From NCBI GenBank assembly GCA_002763895.1, contig NSLH01000021.1:1-45411 (forward strand): a stretch of DNA of 45,411 bases. Reading direction: 5' to 3'. The DNA is from [Chlorobium] sp. 445. Lineage in GTDB: Bacteria; Bacteroidota; Chlorobiia; Chlorobiales; Thermochlorobacteraceae. The position numbers were made by a program, and so were the translations under genes. Positions 41,314-45,411 of this stretch are shown here, in pieces; the first letter of the stretch is position 1, and every line of letters begins with the position of its first letter. The notes beneath the pieces were generated by a model. The model did no database searches and was not told the DNA's origin. It was given only the letters and a program-made list of their open reading frames with translations.

Positions 41314-42767
41314 ATGAACGCAACACAACTTGGCATTTTAGCTTATATCGTGCTTCAACTTGGCCTTGGCTTTTTGCTCTCTCGGCGCATTCACACTGAA
41401 GCAGATTATTTGCTGGCTGGACGCCGCTTAGGCTTAAGCATTTCAGTGCTCACACTCTTTTCCACATGGTTTGGCGCAGAAGCCTGTCTTGGTGCTGCTG
41501 GCGTGATTTATCAAGAAGGGCTTTCGGGTAGTGTTGCAGATCCATTTGCTTATGGCATCTGCCTTTTGCTGATGGGACTGTTCTTTGCCGTGCCGCTTTG
41601 GAAAAGAAACTTGACCACACTGGCTGATTTTTTTCGGCAGCGTTATGCTCCTTCAGTTGCACAGCTTGCTGCAGTCTTGATGATTCCCTCGTCACTTTTG
41701 TGGGCAGCCTCGCAGATGCGTGCGTTCGGACAAGTGCTCTCTGCCTCTTCCCATCTTGACATTTCAGTTGCAATTACACTCTCTGCTGCCGTTGTGGTGA
41801 TCTATACCATCTCAGGTGGATTGTGGGCTGATGCGATTACTGATGTCGTGCAAGGCTTGATGCTAATTGTTGGCTTGACAAGCCTTTTTGTCGTGGTGCT
41901 GATGCAAACGACACCTGAGCATCTTTCCATCGCCTTTACAGCTGAGCGATTAAATCTCTTTCAGAGTGGCTCAATTTTGCAGCAACTTGAAGCATGGCTT
42001 GTGCCCATTTGCGGCTCGGTCGTGGCGCAGGAGCTTGTGGCACGTGCCCTTGCTGCAAAGTCAGCGCATGTGGCAAGCCGCTCAGCCTTGATTGCAAGTG
42101 CGTTATACATGCTCTTTGGCACCATCCCTGTGCTCCTCGGCCTGCTTGGCATTGCACTTCTTCCAAATCTGAGCGATGCAGAAAAACTTTTACCGATTGC
42201 TGCACACACCTACTTGCCTCCAGTTTTGTATGTGCTTTTTATCGGTGCGCTCTTTTCTGCCATTCTCTCGACCGTCGATAGCACACTCCTTGCTGCAAGC
42301 GCTCTTTTAGCGCACAATGTCATTTTGCCGATGCGTCCTGATATGAGCGAGACTGCCAAGGTACGCATCAACGCTTAGGGGTTGGACTTTTTGGAATTGC
42401 TGCATATTGCTTAGCGCTGTATGTCAGCAGCATTCATGAACTTGTCAAACTTGCCTCGGCAATTGGCAGTGCAGGTGTCTTTGTGGTGGTGGCTGTCGGT
42501 CTGTTTTCACCGCTCGGTCAGAAATACAGCGCCACAGTCGCCTTGCTGGCAGGCGCACTTGTCTGGACTTTTGGCACTTACCTTCTTCATCTTGATTTTG
42601 CATACACACTTGCCTTAGGCGTATCTTTCCTAAGTTATGCTGTAGGCGCATGTCTCGAGCATCTGCATGCGACACAGATTTCTGCAAAGTCACGCGCTTT
42701 AAGTGCAACATCTTTGCCAGTGTCTCAACATTTTTCATTATCTCAACAATTTTTCAGCACATGCAAA
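41314..42767 (+). CDS. Sodium:solute symporter family protein; frame interrupted
   Basis: The start at 41314 gives MNATQLGILAYIVLQLGLGF, helix 1 of the SSS family. Then ADYLLAGRRLGLSISVLTLF followed by STWFGAEACLGAAGVIYQEG (Na-site helix). The signature-like SAAVVVIYTISGGLWADAIT and FIGALFSAILSTVDSTLLAA also fit. About twelve or thirteen helices are seen. The first frame stops at 42378; the protein continues in another frame from LGVGLFGIAAYCLALYVSSI. The break is near 42371-42379 (one more C would give RINRLGVGLF). The second frame runs with no stop into the ATP-grasp-like protein at 42768, so the transporter's own stop is not visible. The solute is unknown. Confidence 0.8.
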
Positions 42768-43949
42768 ATGGAACACTCAATTCGTGAGGAATTTAATCGT
42801 AAATTCAAGCGCGAAACCTATCAAGCCTTCATCAACGATCTAAACAAGTATAATCGTGGCGCAATGGATTTTCGACTCTGCGAAACCCCACTCTTTCTTT
42901 CAGAGAAAATGACGCAGGAGTTGATACACGCCTGCGACATCTTAATTGACGAACTCATCGCGCCTGACTTTCTCAAACGTTTAGATGCCGCTGTGCCCGA
43001 ACACCTGCGCGTACCTAACGAAGATGCACATCCCACATTTTTGCAAATTGATTTTGCACTTGTAAGTTTGCCAAATGGCGAACTTGCCCCGCGCTTGATT
43101 GAACTGCAAGGCTTTCCAACACTTTATGCCTTTCAATGGCTACTTGATCTCAAAATCCGTCAGTTCTTCGATATTCCCGATTCGCTGACACCATACTTTA
43201 GCGGACATTCATCCGATTCATACCTTAAACTCTTCAAACGCTTGCTTCTTGCTGATGCAGCACCTGAAAACGTCGTGCTGCTTGAAGTACAACCACACAC
43301 TCAAAAAACTCGAGTTGATTTTTATTGCACCGAAGAGCTGACCGGCGTCAAGACGGTTTGTCTCACTGAAGTGATTAAGCGTGGAAAGAAACTCTACTAC
43401 AAACAAAACGGCAAAGAGATTCCAATTGAGCGCATCTACAACCGCGTCGTCTTCGATGAACTCTACAAAAAGCAAATTGAGTTCGGCTTCCGCTTTCAAG
43501 ATGAACTCGATGTCGTCTGGCTCAATCACCCAAATTGGTTTATGAAAATCTCCAAGTATTGTCTGCCGCTTTTCAAAAATGAATATGCGCCAAAGGCTTA
43601 TTTGCTTTCTGACTTGGAGCATTATCCTGAAAATTTAGAGCACTATGTCTTAAAGCCGCTCTTTTCATTTTCAGGCTCTGGTGTAGAGATTGATGTCACG
43701 CCCGAGACGCTTGATCGAATTAGCGATCGTAAGAATTACCTTCTGCAAGAAAAAGTCGAGTACGCCCCCGTAGTGCGTACGCCCGAAGGTGGCACCAAAG
43801 CTGAAATCCGTATGATGTTTCTGTGGGATGAGAACGAAAAACCAACCTTGGTCAATAACCTCGTACGCATGAGCCGTGGCAAAATGCTTGGTGCATCTTA
43901 CAACAAAGATGCAGAATGGATTGGTGCAAGTTTAGCTTATCATCCATAA
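42768..43949 (+). CDS. Conserved ATP-grasp-like protein of unknown function
   Basis: Start chosen at the ATG at 42768 (MEHSIREEFNRKFKRETYQA), which gives 393 residues. The upstream frame is open into the symporter. The family is recalled as widespread in Bacteroidetes/Chlorobi but annotated hypothetical. Visible parts: PEHLRVPNEDAHPTFLQIDF, RLIELQGFPTLYAFQWLLDL, then YVLKPLFSFSGSGVEIDV (Lys plus Gly-rich loop as in ATP-grasp folds), NYLLQEKVEYAP, and KAEIRMMFLWDENEKPTLVN with VRMSRGKMLG. The Lys, Glu and Asn/Arg in the last parts could be nucleotide/metal ligands. Substrate and product are unknown; a peptide- or amine-ligase-type reaction is speculation. galE starts 13 bases downstream. Confidence 0.7.
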   Translation: MEHSIREEFNRKFKRETYQAFINDLNKYNRGAMDFRLCETPLFLSEKMTQELIHACDILIDELIAPDFLKRLDAAVPEHLRVPNEDAHPTFLQIDFALVSLPNGELAPRLIELQGFPTLYAFQWLLDLKIRQFFDIPDSLTPYFSGHSSDSYLKLFKRLLLADAAPENVVLLEVQPHTQKTRVDFYCTEELTGVKTVCLTEVIKRGKKLYYKQNGKEIPIERIYNRVVFDELYKKQIEFGFRFQDELDVVWLNHPNWFMKISKYCLPLFKNEYAPKAYLLSDLEHYPENLEHYVLKPLFSFSGSGVEIDVTPETLDRISDRKNYLLQEKVEYAPVVRTPEGGTKAEIRMMFLWDENEKPTLVNNLVRMSRGKMLGASYNKDAEWIGASLAYHP

Positions 43950-43962
43950 CCACGCACGCTCC

Positions 43963-44961
43963 ATGATTCTTGTAACCGGTGGCGCTGGCTACATTGGTTC
44001 GCACGGTGTCCGGCAATTGCAACGCGCTGGCTATCAAACCCTCATTGTAGATAATCTCATCTACGGTCATCGTGACTTTGCTGAAAAAAGCGAGCATCTT
44101 ATCGGCGATTTGCAAGATGCTGCATTTGTACAAGATGTCTTTGCACGCTATCAAATTCATGCCGTGATGCACTTTGCGGCATTTGCTTATGTGGGCGAAT
44201 CAGTTAGAGAGCCTGCAAAGTATTACCGCAATAACCTTGTGGCCACACTCAACGTGCTTGATGCTATGCGACAGCACGGCGTAAAACTCTTCATCTTCTC
44301 TTCGACTTGTGCCACATACGGTGAACCTGAAGAAATTCCTATTCCTGAAACGCACCCACAGCGCCCGATTAACCCTTACGGACGCTCTAAACTCATGGTC
44401 GAACAAATCTTGCGTGATTACGATGCAGCCTACGGTATAAAGTTTGTCTCCCTGCGCTATTTCAATGCCGCCGGTGCCGATCCAGAAGGCGGTATCGGTG
44501 AAGACCATACGCCAGAGACCCATCTTATTCCCCTCTTGCTCGATGTCGCACTCGGCAAGCGCGAGTCCATCACCATCTATGGCAACGACTACCCTACGCC
44601 TGACGGCACCTGCATCCGCGATTACATTCATGTTACCGACCTTGCTGACGCACACGTCTTAGGCTTGAAATACCTTGAAGCGGGCGGCAACAGTGATGTG
44701 TTTAATCTCGGCAACGGCAATGGGTTTTCAGTTAAGGACGTACACGCAATGGCAGAGTGGGTAACTGGCAAACCTATCAAAGCCATTATCGGTGAGCGCC
44801 GCGCTGGCGACCCTGCACGACTTATCGGTAGCGCCGAAAAAGCAAAATGCATCTTAGGCTGGCAACCCCGATTTGCTGACCTTGAAACTATTATCCGCAC
44901 CGCTTGGCAATGGCATCAAGAACGATTTGCATCTCGACTCACACAAAAATCTGCACCTTGA
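43963..44961 (+). CDS. galE: UDP-glucose 4-epimerase
   Basis: A 332-residue short-chain dehydrogenase-type epimerase interconverting UDP-glucose and UDP-galactose (or their N-acetyl forms). The NAD-binding motif is VTGGAGYIGSHGVRQL, the catalytic Ser/Thr and Tyr-Lys are in FIFSSTCATYGEP and NPYGRSKLMVEQIL, and RYFNAAGADPEGGIGEDHTP is a GalE hallmark. The TPDGTCIRDYIHVTDLADAH segment is also diagnostic. It likely supplies sugars for the polysaccharide made by the 17-27 kb cluster. No frame breaks. Confidence 0.95.
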   Translation: MILVTGGAGYIGSHGVRQLQRAGYQTLIVDNLIYGHRDFAEKSEHLIGDLQDAAFVQDVFARYQIHAVMHFAAFAYVGESVREPAKYYRNNLVATLNVLDAMRQHGVKLFIFSSTCATYGEPEEIPIPETHPQRPINPYGRSKLMVEQILRDYDAAYGIKFVSLRYFNAAGADPEGGIGEDHTPETHLIPLLLDVALGKRESITIYGNDYPTPDGTCIRDYIHVTDLADAHVLGLKYLEAGGNSDVFNLGNGNGFSVKDVHAMAEWVTGKPIKAIIGERRAGDPARLIGSAEKAKCILGWQPRFADLETIIRTAWQWHQERFASRLTQKSAP

Positions 44962-45075: not shown

Positions 45076-45411
45076 ATGAGTGGAGGCAATTCCATGGCAA
45101 TACGGCTCTTCGCGTTGCTTCTCATCTCTTCTCTCATCCCTGCCTTAGCCACAGCGCAAAATAGGCAACTCTACTCCTACCAAAGTGGAAACTTCAATGA
45201 CCCAAACATCTGGACGCTCACCAACGGCGGCACAGACTTCGTAGCGCCTAACGTTGATGATAACTTCACCATCAACCCGGGGCACACCATTACGCTGACC
45301 GCGAACTCGCAAATTGTTCAAACCGCTGCAGCACGCACCGTTACGGTCAACGGCACGCTTAATGTGCAGACCTTCACAACGCAGACTTTTGGCACGATTC
45401 AAGGCACTGGT
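45076..45411 (+). CDS. Secreted G8-like surface protein, partial at right edge
   Basis: Two in-frame starts are possible: 45076 (MSGGNSMAIRL) and 45094 (MAIRLFALLLISSLIPALAT). The second gives the cleaner signal peptide, ending ATAQ. The mature part reads LYSYQSGNFNDPNIWTLTNG, then NPGHTITLTANSQIVQTAAA and TVTVNGTLNVQTF. The pattern SGNFNDPNxW followed by PGHTITL is the beginning of G8-type beta-helix domains in large secreted Bacteroidetes/Chlorobi proteins, which usually end in a sorting domain. The gene is cut by the window edge, so length and C-terminal domains are unknown. Confidence 0.75.
   Translation, partial: MSGGNSMAIRLFALLLISSLIPALATAQNRQLYSYQSGNFNDPNIWTLTNGGTDFVAPNVDDNFTINPGHTITLTANSQIVQTAAARTVTVNGTLNVQTFTTQTFGTIQGTG

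Follow-up and report, generated by a model that had tools for sequence, protein, structure and literature searches.

A sodium:solute symporter fused to a predicted ATP-grasp ligase in a genus of hot-spring Chlorobi-type bacteria, and two partner ligases as leads to the substrate of the enzyme

The window analysed here is the whole 45,411-nucleotide contig NSLH01000021.1 of [Chlorobium] sp. 445, and the genes of interest lie on its forward strand (Table 1). A frame free of stop codons runs from 42342 to 43946, is closed by a TAA at 43947, and spans both the tail of a sodium:solute symporter (SSS) and the entire coding region of an ATP-grasp-like enzyme. The first-pass annotation was therefore right that no stop codon separates the last helices of the symporter from the enzyme. 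The body of the symporter (its first 354 codons) is read in a different frame from the symporter tail and the enzyme, which the first-pass annotation had overlooked, and a tblastn search placed the change of frame at 42369-42384. At the far end of the window (45076-45411), a long ORF with a signal-peptide-like start begins and continues past the last nucleotide.

Table 1. Features of the symporter and ligase locus (window coordinates)
Feature	Position	Strand	Basis or remarks
Sodium:solute symporter, N-terminal part; ATG 41314, 354 codons, premature TAG 42376-42378	41314..42378	+	PF00474, E 9.2e-33
Symporter C-terminal helices, same frame as enzyme	42369..42638	+	Match to G001 fusion
Single-base deletion (after ~42371) and resulting TAG	42370..42378	+	One-base gap in the window genome (G000) alone, four-genome alignment
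ORF flagged by the first-pass annotation, 488 aa	42483..43949	+	GTG start within symporter tail, through enzyme
Fusion linker, 43 codons, without stop, sequence unconserved	42639..42767	+	Alignment and linker comparison; ~45 pLDDT in G001 fusion model
GspS/YgiC-fold ATP-grasp ligase (predicted), 393 aa, own ATG 42768	42768..43949	+	Alignment, AlphaFold model and fold search
Enzyme residue D95	43050-43052	+	Invariant in 60/60 aligned sequences
Enzyme residue E112	43101-43103	+	Invariant in 60/60 aligned sequences
Enzyme residue Q114	43107-43109	+	Invariant in 60/60 aligned sequences
Enzyme residue K296	43653-43655	+	Invariant in 60/60 aligned sequences
galE-like epimerase, 13 bp 3′ of enzyme stop; also follows the enzyme in G001 and G002	43963..44961	+	ORF and profile search

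The arrangement became clearer when relatives were compared. In one congener (G001), symporter and enzyme form a single uninterrupted ORF of 867 codons; the window symporter at 41314..42378 is 71% identical to residues 1-357 of this intact fusion, and positions 42369-43946 of the window (G000:C21) match its residues 353-867. A further congener, Ca. Thermochlorobacter aerophilum OS (G002), also carries the fusion, with several small indels in the symporter, several of which are N-terminal. In the sister genus (G003, GBChlB contig), the two genes are adjacent and in phase, 18 bp apart, with one TAA between them. We located the break in the window copy by aligning it with these three sequences, none of which has the gap. 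The first-pass annotation had left a choice between a true fusion and an indel hidden at 42650-42800. A fusion is indeed common to the three congeners and an indel is indeed present, but the latter lies at ~42371, inside the symporter, where it breaks the fusion and does not create it. The region 42650-42800 has no stop in any relative of the genus, and the gaps to be expected there are those of a variable linker only. Programmed frameshifting was considered as the cause of the break and was ruled out, since G002 is broken at other sites than the window copy.

Outside these two genera the genes are apart. In G005, a symporter relative (52% identity) is found ~58 kb from the enzyme, and a close symporter is absent from the four g3 genomes; in both of the two g3 genomes inspected, the enzyme follows trpS, and in one of them it precedes gltX (gene names read from the sequence). 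The open frame around the enzyme measures 535-875 codons in the three congeners vs 300-469 codons in the other 110 enzyme-bearing genomes. Because the genes are fused in the congeners, separated by one in-frame TAA in the sister genus and apart elsewhere, we read the fusion as a genus-level trait, common to three genomes of a hot-spring Chlorobi-type genus, that looks real but recent. The outcome that the first-pass annotation had named as counting against its reading, relatives with a stop between the two genes and unrelated neighbours, is thus seen in part, outside the genus. A possible second fusion, at L085 in a Verrucomicrobia MAG with 292 open codons upstream of the enzyme, was rejected, as the upstream frame resembles the spurious coding typical of GC-rich DNA; another ORF there looks transporter-like on reading the sequence, but it is in a different frame, which counts against a fusion.

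The inter-domain linkers of the three congeners comprise 43, 32, and 36 codons and defy alignment, but each of them keeps the frame and lacks a stop. Shuffling at constant composition left the linkers without a stop in 10%, 18%, and 11% of trials, respectively, the product of which (0.002) serves as a guide and not as a p-value, given that the three species are related. The stop-free linkers thus appear to be more than chance. Judging from the sequence of G001, translation that begins at its symporter must continue into the enzyme. Since the ATG of the enzyme is retained in all four genomes (the three fused copies and the sister genus), internal starts may also occur there; no obvious Shine-Dalgarno sequence precedes this ATG in any of the four.

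An AlphaFold model of the enzyme, based upon 60 aligned sequences, has a mean pLDDT of 91.4. Structural comparison (VIA-align) matched it to E. coli YgiC (7uk8) with a Z-score of 25.6 over 340 residues at an rmsd of 3.5, to YjfC with a Z-score of 25.4, and to GspS with a Z-score of 23.9. Foldseek grouped it with glutathione synthetases, homoglutathione synthetases, and Cp1B, the E-64 ligase (E 5e-14 to 7e-11), as well as with GspS and YgiC/YjfC, although the first three gave no PDB sequence match to the enzyme at E up to 1. Profile comparison by hhalign with YgiC/YjfC/Gss yielded an E-value of 2.5e-4 at a probability of only 43%, and aligned D95, E112, Q114, and K296 of the enzyme with D102, E115, N117, and K302 of YgiC. 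The D/E/N set is presumably that of the Mg ligands of GspS, and the third of these positions is Q, not N, in 60/60 sequences. The peptide-spermidine ligases YgiC and YjfC and the synthetase domain of GspSA therefore resemble the enzyme over the full length of the fold and at the D, E, and ATP-lysine positions, but they differ from it in sharing only 11-15% identity, in having N where it has Q, and in that the enzyme lacks an amidase domain. The enzyme does not reach the gathering score of PF03738 (GSP_synth; 16.6 bits, E 0.0048, vs a cut-off of 29.3), and for this reason we have not assigned it to that family; no Pfam or NCBIfam model was matched above its cut-off by the enzyme family. Model, fold search, and alignment nonetheless agree with the earlier suggestion of an ATP-grasp fold and show conservation at the putative ligand positions; they indicate that the enzyme is an ATP-grasp protein of the GspS/YgiC/glutathione-synthetase fold. 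ATP-grasp ligases, according to PMC12568646, phosphorylate a carboxylate, which is then amidated. The fold of the enzyme and its putative Mg and ATP residues predict a reaction in which a carboxylate is phosphorylated and then linked to an amine.

The symporter half is recognizable even in the broken copy of the window, which scores 114 bits against PF00474 (cut-off 22.8). The symporter of G001 covers the profile fully (1-406) and adopts a LeuT fold in the model of the fusion, with a pLDDT of ~92 up to residue 450; the enzyme half of that model was poor (pLDDT ~38), and the separate enzyme model was therefore used. The only domains found in the 867-aa protein were SSF and a weak GSP_synth match, with no STAC or histidine kinase domain. 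By sequence and fold, the nearest solved structures are those of the choline transporter CHT1 (E 1.6e-30; CHT1/sfCHT, SLC5A7), whose Na2 and Na3 residues are retained. According to PMC11589582 and PMC13220886, the choline cage of CHT1 is made of six aromatic residues. W62, Y91, and W141 are retained, whereas Y67 is replaced by A, W254 by S or A, and W406 by V (the last from a phmmer alignment). With just three of the six cage aromatics retained, the sequence makes it unlikely that the symporter is simply a choline transporter. Relatives of the symporter at ≥48% identity occur in 14/296 genomes, and the enzyme in four of these 14, all in family f1; the neighbours of the symporter relatives gave no clue to the substrate. 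Four relatives from other Bacteroidota families (L232:8576-10966, L233:2911-5112, L234:9153-11315, and L241:3046-5193) lie near a similar-looking membrane protein of ~715-800 aa (grouped by eye).

SSS proteins with 13 helices have a cytoplasmic C-terminus and the enzyme would need ATP, so that the C-terminus of the symporter is presumably cytoplasmic. Catalytic modules on the cytosolic end of an SSS symporter have a precedent: the CbrA and CrbS transceptors, as described in PMC7096432 and PMC9100948, join an SSS domain to a cytosolic histidine kinase. The fusion shares with them an SSS domain followed by a C-terminal cytosolic catalytic module, but here the added module is a predicted ligase, not STAC plus kinase. 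In the literature searched on the ligase or fusion question, we found no fusion of an SSS symporter to an ATP-grasp ligase.

In contrast to the symporter, which is linked to the enzyme in two genera, and to galE, which lies downstream of it only in the three congeners, the enzyme itself is widespread, with a count of 113/394 genomes of the phylum (G077, with a match of 25 residues, was left out of an initial 114). The transporter and galE, which had been proposed as a lead to the substrate of the family, therefore say little about it in general. In many other genera the neighbours of the enzyme are a ligase of the GCS2/YbdK type and another ATP-grasp. Across the 394 phylum genomes, the YbdK-type GCS2 carboxylate-amine ligase is present in 108, and a RimK-like ATP-grasp in 109, of the 113 that bear the enzyme; these genomes are related, so that Fisher values overstate the association. 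GCS2 lies <5 kb from the enzyme, on the same strand, in 62 of the 108. The reverse count depends on the cut-off, GCS2 being found without the enzyme in 20, 8, or 1 genomes at 1e-40, 1e-100, and 1e-125, respectively (the last one being G382); the strictest value was picked after the list had been seen, and the GCS2 of G010, a partial match (E 9.8e-118), was entered manually for the 1e-100 and 1e-125 counts. The RimK-like ligase occurs without the enzyme in 17 of the 126 genomes kept once seven hits of lower significance (E 1e-88 to 1e-57) had been left out.

Gene order points to the same partners. Among the best 80 named loci of at least 590, GCS2 is nearby in 46, a class-I GATase in 42, a second, RimK-like ATP-grasp in 40, an esterase-like hydrolase in 26, and an M29-type peptidase in 11, and the genes most often run from hydrolase through ATP-grasp, GCS2, and GATase or peptidase to the enzyme. 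In the operons L042-L119, the slot just before the enzyme is filled by either the class-I GATase or the M29-type peptidase, as if these were alternative processing steps. In family f1 and in G010, the enzyme, GCS2, and the RimK-like ligase are all present but unlinked; searches of the 13 nearest genomes for the operon GATase and M29 peptidase, run without a positive control, returned no match. Five genomes (G069, G089, G163, and G183 of family f21, and G217 of f24) combine the enzyme with the RimK-like ligase but gave no GCS2 match, and family f21 may use a replacement for GCS2. As a 2009 amidoligase paper by Iyer and co-workers, which reportedly surveys operons of GCS2 and ATP-grasp genes, may already describe the operon of the enzyme, we do not claim it as new. 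We infer a chemical order of GCS2, then the RimK-like ligase, then the enzyme. The two partner ligases are strong leads to the substrate of the enzyme; the transporter and galE are weak ones. In the most likely reading, a small amide or peptide pathway has the enzyme as its third ligase, and one genus has tethered this enzyme to a transporter.

As to the break itself, the assembly of the window carries other indels. In a mutual comparison of genes from ~262 kb of this genome and ~540 kb of G001, 3/41 genes were frameshifted in the former vs 0/44 in the latter. The two others, at G000:C9:73045-73940 and G000:C15:21922-23612 (L193, L228), are conserved genes with single frameshifts that are intact in G001, a pattern that points to assembly indel errors; one of them encodes the conserved RimK-like ligase. 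In the three congeners, pN is 0.10-0.22 vs a pS of 0.71-0.75 (at saturated silent sites) in both symporter halves, on either side of the break. Based upon this indel load and the low pN/pS, the break in the window copy is probably a sequence error.

We consider it reasonably probable that the locus represents a genus-specific fusion of an SSS symporter to an ATP-grasp ligase, in which the symporter is a secondary, lineage-specific partner and the window copy is broken, probably by error. The protein would then consist of a complete SLC5-type, LeuT-fold symporter (as seen in G001 and presumed for the window), a flexible, unconserved linker of ~30-40 residues, and the GspS/YgiC-fold ligase, and would have arisen from two neighbouring genes in the same phase, as in the sister genus, through loss of the separating stop. 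The ligase would activate a carboxylate by phosphorylation and couple it to an amine; co-occurrence and operon structure suggest that the co-inherited YbdK-type GCS2 and RimK-like ATP-grasp probably make this carboxylate. The symporter would tether the ligase to the inner membrane and would not hold the key to the substrate of the family. Against this account, the sole unbroken fusion is that of G001, which is one MAG, and two of the three fused copies carry symporter frameshifts, which fits decay too. The low hhalign probability, the Pfam score below its cut-off, the Q at the third Mg-ligand position, the unlinked GCS2 and RimK-like genes of family f1, and the missing matches to the operon GATase and M29 peptidase also count against it. 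If the symporter half were a decaying pseudogene in the window species and in G002, with several of its frameshifts at the G002 N-terminus, the enzyme would be made alone from its own ATG, which all four genomes have kept, though without an obvious Shine-Dalgarno sequence. We think this unlikely, because purifying selection is apparent on either side of the breaks (with the caveat of saturation), similar breaks occur in two further conserved genes of the window assembly that are unrelated to it, and G001 is intact.

It has also to be asked whether the open junction is itself an artefact, with two separate genes that have lost their stop through error. The window assembly does contain indels, but the junction is open in all three assemblies and one of them, G001, had no frameshifted gene among 44, which makes such an origin very improbable. 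A functional alternative to the tether is metabolic channelling, whereby the symporter would import an amine (or acid) for the fused ligase, which would trap it in amide form. The fusion persists in three species, its parts are already neighbours in the sister genus, the nearest solved relative of the symporter is a choline transporter, and YgiC/YjfC are named peptidylpolyamine synthetases (PMC12568646), all of which would fit. Choline, however, has no primary amine and only half of its cage is retained, and the relatives of the symporter mostly occur where the enzyme does not; we regard channelling as quite improbable. A related and similarly doubtful speculation is vectorial amidation: a sodium-coupled importer with an amide-forming ligase on its cytoplasmic end would take in an organic amine and immediately attach it as a cap to a small peptide-like acid supplied by the YbdK-type and RimK-like ligases. 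This would be the final reaction in an undescribed pathway for a low-molecular-weight metabolite of Bacteroidota and relatives.

For the enzyme family, the analysis supplies a fold, a probable reaction, and two partner ligases that are nearly always present. Its substrate can thus be sought in cultured Chitinophaga, Hymenobacter, or Spirosoma, with no need to turn to hot-spring bacteria that have not been cultured.
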